DNA from: Apostichopus japonicus
Taxonomy: Eukaryota; Echinodermata; Holothuroidea; Aspidochirotida; Stichopodidae
NCBI RefSeq assembly: GCF_037975245.1
Contig: NC_092577.1
Location: 23,772,398 to 23,836,397 of the forward strand
Reading direction: 5' to 3'
Length of the DNA stretch: 64,000 nucleotides
Shown here: one piece after another, positions 1 to 55,455 of the stretch
Position numbering within the stretch: position 1 is the first letter of the stretch
Layout of the letters: the number at the start of each line of letters is the position of its first letter
Made by a program: the position numbers and the translations under genes
Notes under the pieces: generated by a model
The model's database searches: none
What the model was told of the DNA's origin: nothing
The model's input: only the letters and a program-made list of their open reading frames with translations

Positions 1-258
1 AAGCCTTGCGTAGGAACTCTTCCCAGCAATATATGGTCTCCTCCTCCTTGTCACGATGTGCACAATTCTCTGACCACCTAATGTGAAACAACTTGTTGAC
101 AGAAGAGAAGGTGCTTTTTACGTGACCCGCCATGCGGGATACAAAACGTCACGGCCAAACGGCACTACCGAACCATCCCATTCTGACAAACGAGCCAAAA
201 AAACATGCGCCCGCCGACCTGCAGAGACAAAACGCCCAACCCCCCCCCACTGAAACAT

Positions 259-3200
259 TCAAAAACGTACAGAAGGACGACCCGCACGCAGCGAAACGAA
301 AAACCCCTCCCCAGCACACCAGCGTCCAAAAAAGGCAGCCCCAGATAAACGGCGAAAATCGCCTTCAATCTGAACGCGAATGTCGGACTTCACCGCCTCT
401 AGGACTGCCTGCCGACTGGCAAATTTCCCCCTAAAAACCAAATTACACCTATTCCGCCAAACATGTTTTTTTACAATAGAGCAAACAAAAATGATGCGGT
501 GCAACACAGCTACCGAACAAACTGGAGGGTCTACCCCATATAAAATAAAGCCCTGCCCTACCGACCATGAACGGTCTTCCCGTAACACGGTCGGTCCAGG
601 TCTGGAACCACTCCCATAAGTTTACTACAAAGTAACAATGCCAAAAAACATGAGCAGTACTCTCTAAGCTGTCACAGCCGGTCCTAGGGCACAGTCCATC
701 ACCCAATCGCCAATGATATCTTTTTAGGTTGGTCACCAAGGCACCGTGTGCAACTCTCCATGCAAGATCACGGAGCCTGTAACCATTCAGCCTTGAATGC
801 ACCGAACGCCATACTTCGGCAGAATGACGTCCCTGGACAAAAGTTGCATTCAAGGCCTTATCCCTCAACGAACTGTGAACGAGGGCCGGCTGTGACAGGT
901 CAACAGGGGGCAACTCAATCAGAGCGGAGCAGATGACACGCACCACCCTGTTTGGAGTACTACTATGCGGTTCTCTGTTGCTAAACAGCGCCGGGACCCA
1001 TCGACGCAGGTGCAAACCGCCCCAAAAACGTACAAAATCCTGGGTCAGTTACCGCTACAAACAACTGCTTAAATAACAAAAAGGTCAATTTACTTCCCAG
1101 ATGAACCACCCCTAGTCCCCCCTTCTCCAGTTTTTGGTACAATACCGCCCTCTTGACAAGCTCTGTACCCCCAGACCATATGAATGAAAAAATCGCCCTC
1201 TCCAACCGTACCAGGACGCGACGCGGAATAGGGTACACCGCGCCCGGGTACCATAAGATGGGCGAAACGAAACGATTAATAACAGTGACTTTCCCCAAGA
1301 TCGAAAGCCAGCGGGTGCCAAAGGTTTCGAGTCTGCTCTGAAATACCTCAGCCCTCTCGTTCCAGGTGACATCACAAGGTGCATCGTAGCCGAACCATAT
1401 ACCATTAATTTTGATATTCTGATCCGACCACGACGCACCGAATGGTAAGTCTCTGTATCTCCAGCTACCAAGACGAAGGCCCTTTGTCTTTTCTGGATTC
1501 AACTTCGCCCCGGTAGCTCTCTCAAAAATAGATAGATCCTGCGAGAGTGCGCGAAAGGAGCCGAGACTCGAAACAATACATGTCACGTCATCTGCATATT
1601 GAGCGCATTTCACTTTGGCACCCCCTGGCACAACGAATGGAACAAGTCTGGAGTCCCTTTCCAAAAGACGAGAGAGGGACTCGCTAAACAAAACATAAAG
1701 TAATGGAGACAGAGGGCACCCCTGGCGCACCCCCCTCTCTACGTTAAAAACCTCCGAACAAAACCCATTTACGATAACAGAACTGAAACTTTGTTCATAC
1801 AAAACAGAAATCCATTTACGAAAAACCGGGTGCAACTGAAACGTCTCCAATACATTCATTAAAAAACCGCGATCCACCATGTCAAAGGCCTTCTGCTGGT
1901 CCAGAGACACCAATGCACATGGCAGATCACGCTCAATAACATAGTCGGTCAAGTCGCGCATCAACCACAAGTTCTGCTGGATGCAATGACCCTTCACTGC
2001 ACAAGTCTGGAGATCACCAACAAGATGCGGCATAGCCCGTGCAAGGCGGTTGCACAACGCCTTAGCCAGCAACTTGTAGTCCACATTTAACAAGGTGATC
2101 GGACGCTTGTTATGGGGATCCAAGGGGTCCCCAGACTTGGGCAGCAAAGTAATCATGCCCAGACGTTGACTTTGGTTTAACAGTCCGTTTTGGAAGGCGT
2201 CTTCGAAGACGGCTCTGATGTCGGGTCCTATTATTGCCCAGAAGGTTCGGTAGAACTCCCTCGGAAGCCCGTCCGAACCCGGGGACTTGCCATTCTTCAT
2301 CTTCGAAAGCGCCTTCCAAAGCTCAACAGTGGTTATTCTGCCCCCCAAAATATCATTGACATCGTGGGGAACGGTTTTTGAGATTCCCCTCAATAAATCA
2401 GACTGTGCCGACAAGTCGACATTGCCACGCGTAAACAAACTCGAGTAATACTCTTTATATACGCGGACAATGCCGTGAGGGTCACTGACCACGGTCCCAT
2501 CAGTAGCGCGCACGGACGGGACGCGTCTGTCACCCGCCGATGAGCTAACGGACTGGTAAAACCTCAGTGAAGGGCGCTCCTCGGCTTCCACCGCTTCGAC
2601 ACGGGCCCTGACGCGGGCACCGTGGTACTTTTCATCGAGATACGTCTGCAAAGCGATGACTGCCGAAGGGTCGCCAAACTTCACCTCCGCGCACAGCTTC
2701 GAGAATTTTTCTCTTCGACGCCGTGCGCGGGTCACGCAATACTGAATTGCGTAGCGTTTGATGCGCGACTTGATATTATCCCACCACTGGGATGTAGAAG
2801 CAAAGGCCGGCTTCAATGTTTGCCATCCTTTGTACCTGGTCTCGAAACCCTGGCGGAATTCTGCCTCGCCAAGAATCCGACAGTTAAGCTTCCATAGGCC
2901 CCGCCCGATCGGGAAAATGGAAGGCAAAGTAAAACGTGCTACCACAGTATCATGGTCAGAGAGCGGACAGCTGAGCGTCTCGCAACCCGAAAGTTTAAAA
3001 CTCATGGGCGCATACACCCGATCTATCCTGGAGGCATCTTCTCCGTTAGGCCTCACCCACGTATACCCCGTACTACACGGGTGCATATGCCTCCATACAT
3101 CGGCCAAAAGGTGTGCCGAAGTAAATCTGTCCAGCTCTGTAATTCCAGCGTCAGGACTAGCAGACACAGAAGTTCCGAATCTGTCAAGACCTGAGTCTGG

Positions 3201-3637
3201 GACACAGTTAAAGTCTCCGACCATGACACACGGCGCACTACCAGGAACAAAGGAAGGCAGCGTGTTAAAGAAATCTCGTCTAGCAGAAGGCCGATTGGGA
3301 GCATACACATTGCAAATGGCGATGTTACCCTGTGGATACTTGAATAGAATGCAAACCAATCGGCCCTCGTGATCCGTCTCCACCCTAGTGGCACAACCCG
3401 CCTGACGAGCTGACAGAAGGATGACAGTGCCACAGGATGAAGACGAACCAAACGAAGCATGCAGCTCGCCACCCCACTCATAAGCCCATAGAGGGACATC
3501 TTCTTCCAAAATATGTGTTTCTTGCAGGCAAACGCAGTCGACCTCCATTGATTTACAATACTGGAAAATGCGACTGCGCTTGCGATGATCCCTCATGCCA
3601 TTCACGTTCAAAGTGGCAACTGAAAGTGTATGGGCCA
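259..3637 (-). pseudogene. LINE family A ORF2: APE endonuclease plus reverse transcriptase, frameshifted near its C-terminus
   Basis: From the ATG at 3637 (MAHTLSVATLNVNG) the frame stays open to 981. The APE endonuclease shows LNVNG, CLQETH, GDFNC and CPLSDHD. The reverse transcriptase shows LVSLDQQKAFDMVD (motif A), RGVRQGCPLSPLLYVLF (motif B) and CAQYADDVT (catalytic YADD). These are the enzymes for nicking the target and for target-primed reverse transcription. The C-terminal part continues in other frames over 449-1015 and 259-588 and ends with a Cys/His-rich stretch (CPRTGCDSLESTAHVFWHC) typical of L1/Tx1 tails. At least two frameshifts separate these blocks. All catalytic motifs visible in the main frame look intact. 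Confidence 0.85.
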
Positions 3638-3657
3638 TGAGAGGGCAGTGGGGCAAA

Positions 3658-4743
3658 CTACGAAGACGACGATTCCGTAAGCTTCAATCGCGCCCTAGAC
3701 GACATATCGTCGTCCGAGTCGTCACTTGAAGCCGACCTTTTAAGAGAGGGTTCCCCCATTTCGTCGTACCAGCTCGTTCCAGTGGCACGTTTCGGCTCGC
3801 TGATCACCGATTCACCGGAGTCGCTGTCAGACAGAGCCTCCGGAGGATCGATGACCACCGATTCTCCGTCAGACAAAGCCTCCGGATCTGGCGATACCGG
3901 CTGGGGACTGAACTGGACGAGTTGATGGGGGAAGCTGGTGGAGACTTTCTCGGTGCGGGCACGGGGTTGGGGTCTGCAACGACGGGGGTGGGTGAACCAG
4001 GTGCAGGGGAGGGTAAAATCCCACCAGATTCCCCTTCCTCTCGTGAAGTAGTAGGTGCGTCGGAACTTGACTTACCCCCACTCTTAGTCCTAGAGACATA
4101 AGAGGAGGGACAAGCTCGAAAGACATGTCCCTCCTTCCCACATAGTGAGCACACAACCTCGTTTGGGCAAGCGGTGCTATCATGCCCAAGACGAAGGCAG
4201 CGCCCACATTTCTTGTTTGGGCAGCCCTTGGCTTCGTGCCCGGTCTCCCCACACCTGAAGCAGGTACGGGGCTGACCGGGATACCGCACGTGGGCTTTAT
4301 GCCCTGCTATAAACAGGAAGGAGGGAATGTCCCTGTTTCAGGTCGATCCGAACCTGTCGGTGCCCGTTCAACACCCCAGGGGCTTGTGCATAGGAGCACA
4401 TTTTGGCAGCCTTGACAGCCCCAAACCGACCCAAAACCGTTACGACAAGTTCCTGCCGCACCTCTAGTCCTACGTGGATGACAGTTACCCATACGGATCG
4501 CTCGTATGGAGTAACTGTCATCCCCTCGACGTTACTCAGCAACGTGACACCTTTCTGACGGGCCACGTCACTGGTAAAACGTAAATCGTACGTATTACGA
4601 CCCTGGAGAGCTTGCAAAGCATCAACCTCTCCAGGCACAACAACACCCTTGCTCTTCAAAATACTAAAAACTTGCACCGGTGGAACCGCTTGTTCACCGG
4701 TGAACGACAACTTAACAATCCGAGAATCACGGCGCGATGCCAT
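3658..4743 (-). pseudogene. LINE family A ORF1 (zinc-knuckle RNA-binding protein), frameshifted
   Basis: ORF1 begins at the ATG at 4743 (protein start MASRRDS). A folded N-terminal half is followed by three CCHC knuckles near 4130-4280: CFRCGETGHEAKGC, CGRCLRLGHDSTAC and CSLCGKEGHVFRAC. The C-terminal tail to 3658 is rich in Ser, Pro and Asp. In LINEs such proteins bind the element RNA and form the retrotransposition particle. Compared with the intact family B ORF1 at 60336-61622, an extra G around 4325-4331 shifts the frame just before the knuckles. The stop at 3660-3658 is followed about 20 bases later by the ORF2 ATG. An upstream in-frame extension to 4896 lies in the 5' UTR and is not favoured as the start. 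Confidence 0.8.
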
Positions 4744-4966
4744 GATACCGAAGGTGGCTAGGCCACAGGGGAGTAACAAAAAACAAACTAAAGACAGGAT
4801 AGTGAAACAACAAACGATATACGAACTGAGGAAAACACACGAACACAAGCTGTCACACCCGCCTGGCGGGAAGTATAGCACAGTACAGCACAGCACAAAA
4901 ACAGCTGTAATAGATGAAGAGCGAGAGCAAAACGCGTCCGCACTCCACGAAAGCCAACTGCCAACT

Positions 4967-5585
4967 GTCCTGCTTGAGGTCGATCCGAACCTGTCGGTGC
5001 CCGTTGAACACCCCAGGGGCCTGTGCGTAGGAGCACATTTTAATAGCCTTGACAGCCCCGAACCGACCTAAAACAGTTGCGACAAGTTCTTGACGCACCT
5101 CTAATCCTACGTGGATGACAGTTACCCATACGGAACGTTCGTATGGAGTAACTGTCAAACCTTCAACCCCACTCAGCAACGTGACACCCTTCTGCCGGGT
5201 CACGTCACTGGTAAAACGTAGATCATACGTATTACGACCCTGGAGAGCTTGTAGAGCATCAACCTCTCCAGGCACAACAACACCCTTACTCTTTAAAATA
5301 CTAAAAACTTGCACCGGTGGAACCGCTTGTTCACCGGTGAAGGTCAACTTAACAATTTTCGAATCACGGCGCGATGCCATGATACCGAAGGTGGCTAGGC
5401 CACAGAGGAGTAACAAAAACAAACTATAAAGACAGGTTTAAACTTAAAACGATATACGATAACTATATACGACAAACGCACACACCCGCCTGGCGGGAAG
5501 TATAGCACAGTACAGTACAGTAAGGTAAGGTAAGAAAGTAGCTGTATCAGATGGAGAGCGAGAGCGAAACACGTCTGCACTCCAC
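4967..5585 (-). mobile_element. Inverted 5' segment of a second family A LINE (5' UTR plus ORF1 N-terminus)
   Basis: A minus-strand copy of the family A 5' end. The element start (GTGGAGTGCAGACG on the minus strand) lies at about 5585. The 5' UTR and the ORF1 N-terminal half follow, and the copy stops abruptly near 4967 after the residues VRIDLKQD. It is nearly identical to the matching part of copy A1 (for example the shared VFSILKSKGVVVPGEVDALQ). Its 5' end abuts, across about 20 bases, the plus-strand 3' segment beginning near 5606. That head-to-head layout fits one insertion with a 5' inversion rather than two separate events. Confidence 0.7.
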
Positions 5586-5605
5586 TATGTTGACATAGTG
5601 ACATA

Positions 5606-7362
5606 GTTTCAGTTGCACCCAAATTTTCGTAAATGGATTTCTGTTTTGTATGAACAAAGTTTCAGTTCTGTTATCGTAAATGGGTTTTGTTCGGAGGTTT
5701 TTAACGTAGAGAGGGGGGTGCGCCAGGGGTGCCCTCTGTCTCCATTACTTTATGTTTTGTTTAGCGAGTCCCTCTCTCGTCTTTTGGAAAGGGACTCCAG
5801 ACTTGTTCCATTCGTTGTGCCAGGGGGTGCCAAAGTGAAATGCGCTCAATATGCAGATGACGTGACATGTATTGTTTCGAGTCTCGGCTCCTTTCGCGCA
5901 CTCTCGCAGGATCTATCTATTTTTGAGAGAGCTACCGGGGCGAAGTTGAATCCAGAAAAGACAAAGGGCCTTCGTCTTGGTAGCTGGAGATACAGAAACT
6001 TACCATTCGGTGCGTCGTGGTCGGATCAGAATATCAAAGTTAATGGTATATGGTTCGGCTACGATGCACCTTGTGATGTCACCTGGAACGAGAGGGCTGA
6101 GGTATTTGAGAGCAGACTCGAAACCTTTGGCACCCGCTGGCTTTCGATCTTGGGGAAAGTCACTGTTATTAATCGTTTCGTTTCGCCCATCTTGTGGTAC
6201 CCTGGCGCGGTGTATCCTATTCCGCGTCGCGTCCTGGTACGGTTGGAGAGGGCGATTTTTTCATTCATATGGTCCGGTGGTACAGAGCTTGTCAAGAGGG
6301 CGGTATTGTACCAAAAACTGGAGAAGGGGGGACCGGGGGTGGTTCATCTGGGAAGTAAATTGACCTTTTTGTTATTTAAGCAGTTGTTTGTAGCGGTAAC
6401 TGACCCAGGGTTGCCTTGTTCATATTTTGTACGTTTTTGGGGCGGTTTGCACCTGCGTCGATGGGTCCCGGCGCTGTTTAGCAACAGAGCACCGCATAGT
6501 AGTACTCCAAACAGGGTGGTGCGTGTCATTTGCTCCGCTCTGATTGAGTTGCCCCCTGTTGACCTGTCACAGCCGGCCCTCGTTCACAGTTAGTTGCGGG
6601 ATACGGCCTTGAATGCAATTTTTGTACAGGGACGTCATCCTGTCGAAGTATGGCGTTCGGTGCATTCAAGGCTGAATGGTTGCAGGCTCCGTGACCTTGC
6701 ATGGAGAATTGCACACGGTGCCTTGGTGATCAATCTGAAAAGGTATCACTGGCGATTGGGTGATGGACTGTGCCCGAGGACCGGCTGTGACAGCTTAGAG
6801 AGTACTGCCCATGTTTTTTGGCATTGCCCCTTTGTTTTGAACTTGTGGGAGTGGTTTCAGTCCTGGACCGACCGTTTAACGGGAGACCGTTCCTGGTCGG
6901 TAGGACAGGGTTTTGTTTTGTATGGATTAGATCCTCCAGTTTGTTCCGTTGCTGTGTTGCAGCGTATTATTTATGTTTGTTCTGTTGTAAAAAAAACTTA
7001 TTTGGAGGAATAGATGTGATGTTGTTTTTAGGGGCAAATTTGCCAGTTGGCAGGCAGTCCTGGAGGCGGTGAAGTCTGACATTCGCCTTCAGGTCGAAGG
7101 CGATTTTCGCCGTTTATCTAGGGCTGCCTTTTTTGGACGGTGGTGTGCTGGGGAAGGGTGTTTTGTTTCGCTGCGTGCTGGTCGTCCTTTTGTAGTTTTT
7201 TAATATTTCAGTGGGGGGGTTGGGCGTTTTGTCTCTGCAGGTCGGTGAGCGTATGTACTTTTTTTGGCTCGCTTGACCTGAGGTTCGTTTGTAAGAATGG
7301 GATGGTTTGGTAGTGCCGTTTGGCCGTGACGTTTTGTATCCGGTATGACGGGTCACGTAAAA
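5606..7362 (+). mobile_element. 3' segment of a family A LINE (ORF2 from mid reverse transcriptase to 3' end)
   Basis: A plus-strand copy starting inside ORF2, at the residues FQLHPNFRKWISVLYEQ, and running to the family 3' end CACGTAAAAAGC at about 7362. It carries RT motifs RGVRQGCPLSPLLYVLF and CAQYADDVT, the C-terminal Cys/His stretch CPRTGCDSLESTAHVFWHC and the G-rich 3' UTR. A TAG near 6591 replaces a Ser codon found in copy A1, and a frameshift lies near 7000. Upstream it meets the inverted 5' segment at 4967-5585. Together they look like one twin-primed insertion of about 2.4 kb. Confidence 0.85.
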
Positions 7363-8488
7363 AGCGCTATTGTTACAGTGCGGCGTCTATCACTCTATCC
7401 GTCAACAATTGGTAAAACCGCTCCCACTCGCACAGTGTTTGATGGAATTTCATGGAACTTGGACACAAGGACCATTGGGTATAGGGCCATCAGAGATGGT
7501 CCAAAATTTGGGGCCAAAGGTCACCTGTGGGCCGTAATGGGCCATTTGTGGAAATACGCAAAATGCTTCTTCTCCTACAGATTCCATGGTACAATGTTGA
7601 GGGTTTGTCACGATAGTGCTATGGTAGTTTTACCTTCAGGGTGTTCATGAATTTGAGATCAAAGATCAACTAGGGGTCTTTTGTGGCCCGGGCCGCGGCC
7701 CTATATTTTCAAATTGCCCCTGTTCGTACAGTGTATGGCCAATTATAATGAAACGTGGTCACAATGTTCCTCGGGATGAGAGTTACGAGGGGTGTTCGGA
7801 AAATTGAGGTGAAAGGTCATTTAGGGGGTCATCGGGGGTCATTCTTTGTAATATTTTCAAATATCTCAATCTCCTCAACATTTTGATGGATCATATTCAA
7901 AGTTGAACTGATGATTGTTGGATTGTGTATGAATAAGGTGATGCCTAAAAATTTTTGGTCAAAAGTTAATTAATTACAATTAATCCCCATTGTTTAAAAA
8001 AATCTGAGCCTTCACTTTTTGCCAAAGCTCCTTTAATTTGTCTCCCAATCCCTGCAGTGTTTGTTTACATTTGTGGTTAAGCTCTGCAGAGGCTGTTAGT
8101 GGAATTAAAGCAGGACTGGGAGTTGTTATTAATTGTTGAACTGTAAGCATGAGAGCCCTATAGCCAATCAGCACTTGCCGATTCTTAGAAGTCTTTGAGC
8201 CTGAGGTATGTAGGCAGCTTGTGAAGTTATGTCTTGCAGGGAGTGCTTGTTATGTCTGCTAAGGTAGAGGGGAGAAAGTTTAATAGGGTAGGCCAGTGGT
8301 ATTGTTTGAGAGAGTGGGTAAAATAGGATTTAAAGGGGAAAATAGGAATTATAGCCAGTGGTGTGGCCAGGATTCTGCTAACAGAGGGGGGGGGGGGGGG
8401 TTATCCCTCACGGGCCCAAAATTGGTTTTGTGGGCCCTACATTTTTCAGCTCGAAAAGGTATGAGCTTCTGCACCATTGGTGCTCTAA
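7363..8488 (+). repeat. Dispersed repeat R1, copy 1
   Basis: About 1.1 kb that recurs, highly similar and in the same orientation, at about 41764-42808. Shared landmarks are GCTATTGTTACAGTG at the start, GGCCCGGGCCGCGGCCC near 7687, a G run near 8388 and the palindromic end GCACCATTGGTGCTCTA. Copy 2 lacks about 75 bases matching 8220-8290 here and has a shorter G run. No coding capacity is convincing: a short minus-strand frame at 7980-8174 is present in both copies but resembles nothing I know. The repeat begins directly at the 3' end of the preceding LINE. The class is unknown. No clear terminal inverted repeat was found. Confidence 0.8.
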
Positions 8489-26089: not shown

Positions 26090-26345
26090 TAGTGTAGCAG
26101 CATAGCAAACCTATTGTGCATTTTGTGATACATGAACATTAACATATTGCGAACATTTTTAGATATTGGGCCACTGGGAATTCTCTCTTTATGTCCGCCA
26201 TATTTGCGATTATCTGTGGGTCTAATGCTGCTATTTACTTCATTTTGGTGTCTAACTGTATGTTTTTTGGGGCAAGGAATCCAATGGTAACAATCAGCAT
26301 TGTGTATTTTACCAATGGGCCGCCATATTGGATTTCAAAATGGCT
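26090..26345 (+). repeat. Left member of a long inverted repeat flanking the Academ-like gene
   Basis: About 250 bases that recur in reverse complement at about 32345-32615. Shared landmarks are TTGTGCATTTTGTGATAC, CAGATATTGGGCCACT (left copy TAGATATTGGG), TTATGTCCGCCATATT, TGCTGCTATTTACTTCATTT and GGGGCAAGGAATCCAATGGT. The right copy has an extra ~35 bases forming a hairpin. Either these are long terminal inverted repeats of the element between them or a common repeat landed on both sides. Confidence 0.7.
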
Positions 26346-32344: not shown

Positions 32345-32615
32345 CCCCTTTATGAATTGTGCATTGGATTGTGAAATTGGTACCATTGGATTCCTTGCCC
32401 CGAAAAACATACAGTTAGACACCAAAATGAAGTAAATAGCAGCATTACACCCATAGATAATCGCAAATGTAGATTTCAAATGGCGGCCATTTTGAAATCC
32501 AATATGGCGGACATAACGAGAGAATTCCGAGTGGCCCAATATCTGAATATGTTCGCAACATGTTAATATACATGTGTGCCAAATTTGGTGCTTGTATCAC
32601 AAAATGCACAATCCT
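32345..32615 (-). repeat. Right member of the long inverted repeat flanking the Academ-like gene
   Basis: Reverse-complement counterpart of 26090-26345. It holds an extra near-palindrome around 32468-32500 (GATTTCAAA-TGGCGGCCA-TTTTGAAATC), absent from the left copy. It starts about 150 bases after the transposon protein stop. Confidence 0.7.
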
Positions 32616-52187: not shown

Positions 52188-53220
52188 TTGGTAGGTGTGG
52201 GGGCTGTGTGGTCGTTACATATTATAGGTTGGTTTAATTTTTCTCTTTGTGGTTTGGGGTTGGCTTTTTGGGGCCTGTTTGTAGTGTTTTATTTGTTTTG
52301 CTTCTGTTGGCCTTTGGGTCCGTGCCCTTTTCGCGTCACGTTTAACGCTGCGTTAGTGAGAGATTGATGGGTTTCAGTTGTTGCTTTACAGACTGGGTTT
52401 GTTTTTGCTTTAGTTGACCTTTGGTCCGTGTCCGTTTCTTAGCACGTAAAAAGCACACGCAAGGGCGCGGTTGTAGACGAAAAGTATGTCCATCCATCAC
52501 AATCTACTGGCGAACACAAGATATGTACATTTATGGACAGGACTATTATTATGCGATATCCAGTTGTCCAAATCGAAGTAGACACTCCATTCTATGTGTG
52601 GAAACTAGAAGCTGCTTGTATGAAAACTCCAATTTGCGACTTGGTTTTAGGAAACAATATCCCAAGGATTAAGAATCCGTTTCAAATTAATCAGGGTTCA
52701 TACGGGGAAGATATAGTAAACGTACCCCAATCCCAGGAAAAGGAAATACAACAAGAATCTGAACTCACCGCAGTGGTAGAAACTAGAGGTCAACAAATGA
52801 AGAAAATAAACCAAGGAAACCTCTAAGAGTGGTTGAGGCGGATCAATTTAATGTGACCCCAAGTATTTTGCAGGATAAACAAGAAAATGACCCTACGCTA
52901 GATAAAAGTAGGAAAATTAGCGGATACAGGGGAACATAAATCGGGAAAGAAGGGTAAAACGGTTGAGTAATTTAAAGAAGATGACATTTTGTATAGGAGG
53001 TTGAAAGACGAATTTGGGAAGAGTTTGCAGCTAGTGGTGGTACCTCATAAACTTAGGAATCAAGTACTAAACAGCTCACGAAAAAACAGCTCACGAATCA
53101 AGTACTAAAAACAGCTCACAGCTAGGGGGACACCACGGTTCTAAACGAACACTGGATAAAATATTAAGTAACTTCTATTGGCCGGGTATAGGAGCACATG
53201 TTAGACGGTCTTGCCAATCT

Positions 53221-53398
53221 ACTTTTTAAGAAAAAGTCACCCAGGAAAGAACCTGGGCACGAAAACCAAACGACTGATCCGCTCTCAGCCCCAGTCCCTT
53301 GCATCGGGACTGTGACTGTGTGATCATCGTCAGGTGTGCCATCACCATTCCCGAAGGGAACAGATACTACACATGATCTTAGCCAAAAGGCCGAGAAG
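53221..53398 (-). ncRNA. U2-snRNA-headed SINE (retroposed structured RNA)
   Basis: Read on the minus strand from 53398, CTTCTCGGCCTTTTGGCTAA then GATCATGTGTAGTATCTGTT matches the conserved first ~45 bases of U2 snRNA, including the GTAGTA branch-point-pairing motif, with one clear difference in the AAGTGTAG part. After that it is not U2. Three strong hairpins follow: TTCCC-TTC-GGGAA, CAGTCCC-GATGCAA-GGGACTG and CCCAGG-TTCTTT-CCTGGG, then a T/A-rich end. It is flanked by a 24-base duplication with one mismatch (53197-53220 and 53399-53422). The duplication and fused body indicate LINE-mediated retroposition of an snRNA-derived SINE rather than a U2 gene. Confidence 0.8.
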
Positions 53399-53578
53399 CA
53401 TGTTAGACGGTATTGCCAATCTTGTGATATGTGTTAAAGGACCATATCAAAAGGAAGAATAACCAAAGTCCCACTAGGTGACATGCCTTTAATTAACACC
53501 CATTCGAGCGCGTAGCTATCGACTTAGTAGGACCAATTAAACAAGTGACTGATAAGGGACATAGGTACATCTTTGTAC

Positions 53579-53850
53579 ATCTTCGCCGTTTATTTGGGGC
53601 TGCCTTTTTTGGACGCTGGTGTGCTGGGGAGGGGTTTTTCGTTTCGCTGCGTGCGGGTCGTCCTTTTTTAGGTTTTTGAATGTTTGAGTGGGGGGGGGGG
53701 TTGGGCGTTTTGTCTCTGCAGGTCGGCGGGCGTATGTTTTTTTTTTGGCTCGCTAGACCTGAGTTTCGTTTTTCAGAATGGGATGGTTCGATAGTACGTG
53801 CCGTTTGGCCGTGACGTTTTGTATCCCGCATGGCGGGTCACGTAAAAAGC
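53579..53850 (+). mobile_element. 5'-truncated family A LINE (ORF2 end plus 3' UTR)
   Basis: About 270 bases matching 7105-7362, starting in the last codons of ORF2 and ending CACGTAAAAAGC. ACATCTTTGTAC occurs on both sides (53567-53578 and 53851-53862), a perfect 12-bp target duplication. It lies in the integrase-like part of the gypsy fossil. Confidence 0.85.
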
Positions 53851-55385: not shown

Positions 55386-55455
55386 CAGTTTAATATATCT
55401 GCAGAAATAAAAGCCATGTATACATGGCTTTTATTTCTGCAGATATATTAAACTG
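55386..55455. repeat. 70-bp perfect palindrome with AATAAA in each arm
   Basis: Arms 55386-55420 and 55421-55455 are exact reverse complements with no spacer (centre CATGTA|TACATG). Each arm reads GCAGAAATAAAAGCC outward to inward, so a poly(A) signal AATAAA is present on both strands. It starts 13 bases after the stop of the DUF4806-type gene and would fold into its 3' UTR. Confidence 0.9.

Follow-up and report, generated by a model that had tools for sequence, protein, structure and literature searches.

Background

SINEU, which Kojima reportedly described in 2015, is said to comprise crocodilian elements whose heads derive from U1 or U2 snRNA, and we know of no SINEU outside that group. 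Literature passages derive SINEU from U1 and U2, and list SINEU and SINE28 jointly from avian, crocodilian and mammalian genomes in wording that gives no clear assignment of either. Small nuclear RNAs are also found in chimeric retropseudogenes. In a 2026 survey (PMC13174262), U6 accounts for 70.9% of the 253 catalogued chimeric LINE-1 insertions of known type, and U1 and U2 snRNA are cited among the RNAs built into SINEs. Doucet et al. (PMC4476161) describe U5 that is internally truncated and fused either to L1 or to unique sequence. In fungi, the MINE elements of Magnaporthe join WEIRD RNA to the MGL LINE, and the excerpted account (PMC2104539) explains them by template switching and gives flanking repeats of 10–20 bp. 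A further class of elements, the LINEs Keno and Utopia, targets U2 genes themselves; the reported hosts of Keno (PMC4640811) are frogs, fish, lancelet and hydra.

Here, we describe a composite of U2 nt 4–45 and a 137-nt body that interrupts a gypsy element and is flanked by a 24-nt target duplication. It lies in a 64-kb stretch of DNA, the whole of which was analysed and is referred to below as the window. We favor its interpretation as a non-autonomous retroposon with a U2-derived head, that is, a U2-headed SINE of the SINEU kind seen here as a single copy, and consider the case for this reading to be evenly poised.

Comparison with the known systems shows partial likeness to several of them. 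Like SINEU as described from crocodilians, the insert has a sense U2-derived 5′ head on an unrelated body and is short, non-coding and retroposed with a target duplication. In this comparison, made by description only, it differs from SINEU in that a single copy was seen, in a CpG content that is not amniote-like, and in a 3′ end that resembles that of an L1-like LINE. The CpG observed/expected ratio is 0.66 over the window and 0.48–0.90 in six segments, compared to about 0.2–0.3 in amniotes, which argues against an amniote, and hence a crocodilian, host but does not separate fish, lamprey and invertebrates. As in the snRNA/LINE chimeric retropseudogenes (PMC4476161, PMC13174262), a 5′ piece of a snRNA and another retroposed sequence lie within one target duplication, and internal truncation is described there for U5. 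The chimeras in these passages are mostly full-length U6 followed by identifiable LINE-1, whereas the insert consists of 3′-truncated U2 and a body matching no Rfam family, with no poly(A). MINE elements, as excerpted, share with the insert a non-coding RNA head on a retroposon 3′ part; unlike the insert, they have a full-length head (WEIRD RNA, 1.1 kb), their 3′ part comes from a LINE, and 31 copies are known. With Keno and Utopia, the insert shares the joining of U2 to retrotransposon sequence near U2 nt 39 (passages of PMC4640811). Those elements insert into U2 genes; the insert, in contrast, bears the U2 sequence within itself and lies in a gypsy element, where a target duplication of its own flanks it.

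Results and discussion

A 178-nt insert splits a Ty3/gypsy integrase domain

The 226-base region 53197–53422 is bounded by a 24-nt direct repeat with a start-to-start spacing of 202 nt. The minus-strand bases flanking the two repeat copies are A versus T on one side and C versus T on the other, so neither copy can be extended on either side and the insert is exactly 178 nt long. The features at this site are:

53221..53398, minus strand: insert of 178 nt with its 5′ end at 53398, bounded exactly by the direct repeat
53399..53422, minus strand: target duplication, 5′ copy relative to the insert, 23/24 identical to the other copy
53197..53220, minus strand: target duplication, 3′ copy relative to the insert, 23/24
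53102..53566, plus strand: decayed Ty3/gypsy integrase that received the insert; its joined flanks restore Integrase_H2C2
53579..53850, plus strand: 5′-truncated LINE A 3′ end in the same gypsy copy, with a 12-nt target duplication ACATCTTTGTAC, ending TAAAAAGC

When the flanks were joined via one copy of the duplication, a single frame reading NFYWPGIGAHVRRSCQSCDMC resulted, and a 38-residue stretch of it matched Integrase_H2C2 (PF17921) at 45.9 bits, compared to a cut-off of 25.5. Since the empty site restores this domain, the insert splits what was formerly a continuous domain and is a retroposed insert, not a U2 gene. An earlier reading made from the sequence only had proposed a 24-base duplication with one mismatch at 53197–53220 and 53399–53422 and had taken the insert to be retroposed. 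The duplication has that identity and its ends are exact; retroposition is borne out by the duplication, the exact ends and the restored domain together. The single mismatch between the duplication copies and the single mismatch to U2 suggest that the insertion is fairly young, as far as sequence divergence can indicate age.

Two other features of the gypsy element were observed. The LINE A end listed above lies about 145 bases downstream of the insert, with the first copy of its duplication at 53567, and short imperfect repeats of AAACAGCTCACGAA occupy 53069–53122, just upstream of the insertion.

The insert begins with the 5′ part of U2

The head was compared with two U2 references, human U2 and a complete U2 gene on the contaminant contig L001. 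The latter is one of two contaminant U2 loci, the other being cut off, that a universal U2 pattern found in a prokaryote genome collection; the same pattern found nothing in IMG/VR.

53358..53399, minus strand: U2-derived head, U2 nt 4–45, 41/42 identical by U2 alignment; RF00004, 47.2 bits

In pairwise alignment, the 42 positions of the head are the first 41 nt of the insert plus the last base of the duplication (53399, a G corresponding to U2 nt 4), which is thus common to the head and the target duplication. The identity of 41/42 was obtained with both references. The head is in the sense orientation and starts 3 nt from the U2 5′ end, and its sole difference is an A to T change at U2 nt 30, immediately upstream of GTAGTA. 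In the Rfam search, RF00004 (U2) matched the insert with an E value of 2.7e-6 and was the only match reaching its gathering threshold (here, a score of 46) across the window; the alignment covers the first 45 U2 positions, skips nearly all remaining positions of the model and closes with ACC. These results agree with the sequence-only reading, in which the first ~45 bases on the minus strand were assigned to U2 snRNA including the branch-point-pairing GTAGTA.

Elsewhere in the window, a perfect 70-base palindrome without spacer (55386–55455) starts with CAGTTTAATATATCTGCAG, which is similar to U2 stem-loop II (CAGTTTAATATCTG) apart from 2 additional bases. No Rfam match was found there, and the likeness is probably due to chance.

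The body is not U2 and its structure is modestly unusual

The remainder of the insert contains two further features:

53221..53357, minus strand: body of 137 nt, with no Rfam family and no significant match to the remaining U2
53221..53237, minus strand: terminal hairpin ACTTTTT-CTT-AAAAAGT, containing the LINE-like end TAAAAAGT

No Rfam family matched the body at E values up to 2, and no tRNA was found in the window with ARAGORN. These data bear on whether the locus could be a divergent or internally deleted copy of a U2 gene, either a U2 variant or a plain U2 pseudogene, which we consider very improbable. Such a copy would account for the first bases of the body (CCTTCGGGAATGGTG), which agree with the 3′ end of human U2 at 12 of 15 positions, and for the ACC that closes the Rfam alignment. 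However, the 12/15 match is at background level, as the score of the body against the rest of human U2 (9) was equalled by 123 of 200 shuffles, and against the rest of L001 U2 the best match falls elsewhere and was equalled by 109 of 300. U2 stem-loop II is also missing, and no Sm-site match has fewer than two mismatches. A non-U2 body had been proposed before, and the absence of an Rfam match and the chance-level scores against both references uphold it.

Three specific assignments were rejected: an internally deleted U2, by the background scores against human and L001 U2; a functional U2 variant, by the missing stem-loop II and Sm-site matches that all have at least two mismatches; and a tRNA-type SINE, by the negative ARAGORN and Rfam searches.

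Regarding structure, the body contains the hairpin repeats CCC-TTC-GGG, AGTCCC-n7-GGGACT and CCCAGG-n6-CCTGGG, and a fourth, ACTTTTT-CTT-AAAAAGT, which was absent from the earlier reading, closes the 3′ end of the insert. Folded with 4 flanking bases, the insert has a z-score of -4.55, and none of 200 dinucleotide shuffles reached equal stability. Folded alone, the body has a z-score of -2.9, a value reached by 10 of 150 random 137-nt segments of the window, and in its best structure the arms of the first and third hairpins pair together. The hairpins are therefore real, yet the structure of the body is only modestly unusual. The three hairpin repeats of the earlier reading are borne out.

Transcription signals point away from polymerase III

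The combination of A and B boxes that forms the internal polymerase III promoter of a classical SINE was not found in the insert, the tRNA search also being negative. The best B-box match has 3 mismatches among 9 specified bases. Since A-box-like matches with 1 mismatch occur at insert positions 14 (within U2) and 58, there is still a small chance of an internal polymerase III promoter. Because SINEU heads derive from polymerase II genes, the missing promoter lowers only the assignment to a classical SINE. Runs of at least four T occur at insert position 11 (in U2), at 134 (T4) and at 164 (T5). Because the insert runs on past the T5 at 164, polymerase III probably did not make its source RNA.

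The 3′ end of the insert resembles that of L1-like LINEs

The window contains two LINE families, A and B, which have long open frames and carry endonuclease and reverse transcriptase domains. The endonuclease belongs to the Exo_endo_phos family, and zinc-knuckle-like motifs, judged by eye, are present in frames near both. In a search of solved structures, which covered the LINE B protein, the best match was the LINE-1 ORF2 protein (8sxt, E 6e-74), compared to E 3.6e-21 for the best R2 protein. No relatives of the LINE B protein were confirmed in IMG/VR.

For each family, three LINE 3′ ends were located, and all six finish with the 12-mer CACGTAAAAAGC. In 3′-anchored alignment this 12-mer is all that families A and B have in common (score 12), and these 12 shared bases exceed what the insert shares with either. 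The L1-like ends read TAAAAAGC followed by 0–2 bases: LINE B2 ends with TAAAAAGCAC ahead of its 13-nt duplication, two bases past the shared octamer, and the duplication of LINE A3 is compatible with either end. Target duplications, searched as exact words only, were found for two of the six copies.

The insert ends with CTTAAAAAGT. Its final octamer (TAAAAAGT), which stops exactly at the duplication boundary, agrees with the LINE end TAAAAAGC in 7 of 8 bases. At up to 1 mismatch, TAAAAAGC occurs at 81 places among ~128,000 positions on both strands of the window, and the 74 that are neither the six LINE ends nor the insert amount to about 6e-4 per position. In 3′-anchored alignments of 60 nt, the score of the insert was reached by single-base shuffles in 0 of 300 trials for A2 and B2, 1 of 300 for A1 and A3, 5 of 300 for B1 and 4 of 300 for B3. 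Without anchoring, the body showed no significant alignment to the 3′ regions of five of the six LINE copies (45 to 120 of 200 shuffles equal) and came near significance for B2 (5 of 200). The statement in the earlier reading that the insert lacks the end of the local LINEs thus holds for the 12-mer CACGTAAAAAGC, which is absent, and fails for the last 8 bases. We regard the likeness of the 3′ ends as moderate sequence evidence that an L1-like LINE mobilised the insert, and grade the link no higher because A-rich ends are common among retroposons. Against the link stand the LINE B2 end two bases past the octamer and the non-significant wider alignment for five of the six copies. The terminal hairpin could also have produced AAAAAGT in another way, for example by a fold-back origin of ACTTTTT/AAAAAGT.

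These LINEs also bear on a reading in which insertion of an element akin to Keno or Utopia into a U2 gene placed U2 nt 1–45 upstream of the element's 3′ portion, the U2 promoter transcribed the fusion, and LINE machinery retroposed it. It would jointly account for the U2 head, the LINE-like end and polymerase II transcription, and in the relevant part of PMC4640811 the U2 sequence downstream of Utopia starts at nt 39, with the same 3′ flank for Keno; a head ending at nt 45 would result from a 7-nt duplication at that site. Keno is described there with an apurinic-type endonuclease, and the local LINEs carry Exo_endo_phos, LINE B being L1-like. Neither Keno nor Utopia was identified in the window, however, the duplications reported for Utopia in that part are none (arthropods) or 20 bp (reptiles) rather than 7, and the body lacks significant alignment to five of the six local LINE 3′ regions. 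We consider this history unlikely.

Several observations concern the LINEs themselves. The ends at 52443–52454 and 53839–53850 and the four others carry the fixed CACGTAAAAAGC, not poly(A), although the two families are otherwise different, and are a candidate for stringent 3′-end recognition in an L1-like lineage. Two LINE A copies in 113–7365 face each other with their 5′ sides and have separate 3′ ends (113–5585, minus strand; 5606–7365, plus strand), and are 92.7% identical across a 1,764-column alignment. Within the minus-strand copy, 4332–4948 and 4969–5585 form a direct duplication (85.6%).

One copy was found in the window

No further copy of the insert was found in the 64-kb window, the next best matches having E 0.48 with blastn and E 1.5 with nhmmer. 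Five exact 20–21-mers from the body or the head–body junction had no match in IMG/VR, and a 20-mer from the body that included two ambiguity codes had none in the prokaryote genome collection. Neither collection is expected to contain the host, and exact words overlook diverged copies, so these searches carry little weight. Finding a single copy in 64 kb would fit a genome-wide total anywhere between one and many thousands.

As an observation on other repeats, 26122–26294 and 32376–32583 form a dispersed pair (76%) in opposite orientation. The latter copy has an extra ~35 bases with a near-palindrome GATTTCAAAATGGCCGCCATTTGAAATC, possibly a small mobile insert.

The copy number is where the U2-headed SINE meets its most serious competitor, a one-off chimeric retropseudogene, to which we give a substantial chance that falls a little short of even. 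Here, a single target-primed reverse transcription, begun by a LINE enzyme at the 3′ terminus of some other transcript (LINE, SINE or cellular RNA), would have switched to U2 at nt 45, and the product would never have multiplied. The single copy in the window is consistent with this, and the insert is, like a snRNA chimeric retropseudogene, a single composite insertion inside one target duplication. Such events are also well precedented. U1–U6 chimeras with LINE-1 are described in the survey passages (PMC13174262), and those of PMC4476161 describe U6 chimeras whose partner is a LINE (L1, L2 or RTE) or a SINE (Mon-1 or AnolisSINE2), as well as a U5 copy joined to sequence of unknown origin that occurs once in the genome; the internal switching proposed there for U5 leaves 3′-truncated snRNA pieces, like the insert. 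In the same passages, however, the U2/L1 chimera surveyed is inverted and template switching is almost confined to U6 and U6atac, and by this mammalian yardstick a sense U2 piece cut at nt 45 is unusual. In any one window, moreover, copies of a family should be met more often than single events.

A possible route to a U2-headed SINE

If the insert is a U2-headed SINE, its source RNA would have been a fixed composite, and other copies would hence exist. The U2 head may stem from a template switch to an internal site of U2 RNA, near nt 45, while the body RNA was being reverse-transcribed. Transcription was presumably by polymerase II, either from a source locus beside a U2 promoter or from chance promoters, because the polymerase II promoter of U2 genes is external and the T4 and T5 runs would tend to stop polymerase III early. 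The machinery would be that of an L1-like LINE of the same genome, which would start at 3′ ends that read TAAAAAG(C/T). A fuller version of this proposal is a U2-headed SINE family independent of the crocodilian SINEU, moved by an L1-like, non-poly(A) LINE through its TAAAAAG(C/T) end and perhaps originating in a U2 gene that a U2-targeting LINE had entered; we advance it tentatively and consider it somewhat doubtful. A separate origin had been raised in the sequence-only reading for an apparent invertebrate, a host assignment that is conjectural given what the CpG ratio can distinguish.

Conclusions

If the insert proves to be a one-off, a 3′-truncated, sense-orientation case of U2 joins the known template-switch chimeras. 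Should a family exist, snRNA-headed SINEs would extend beyond crocodilians, RNA made by polymerase II could be a recurrent source of SINE heads, and such a SINE would be paired with an L1-like LINE that has a fixed-sequence, non-poly(A) end.
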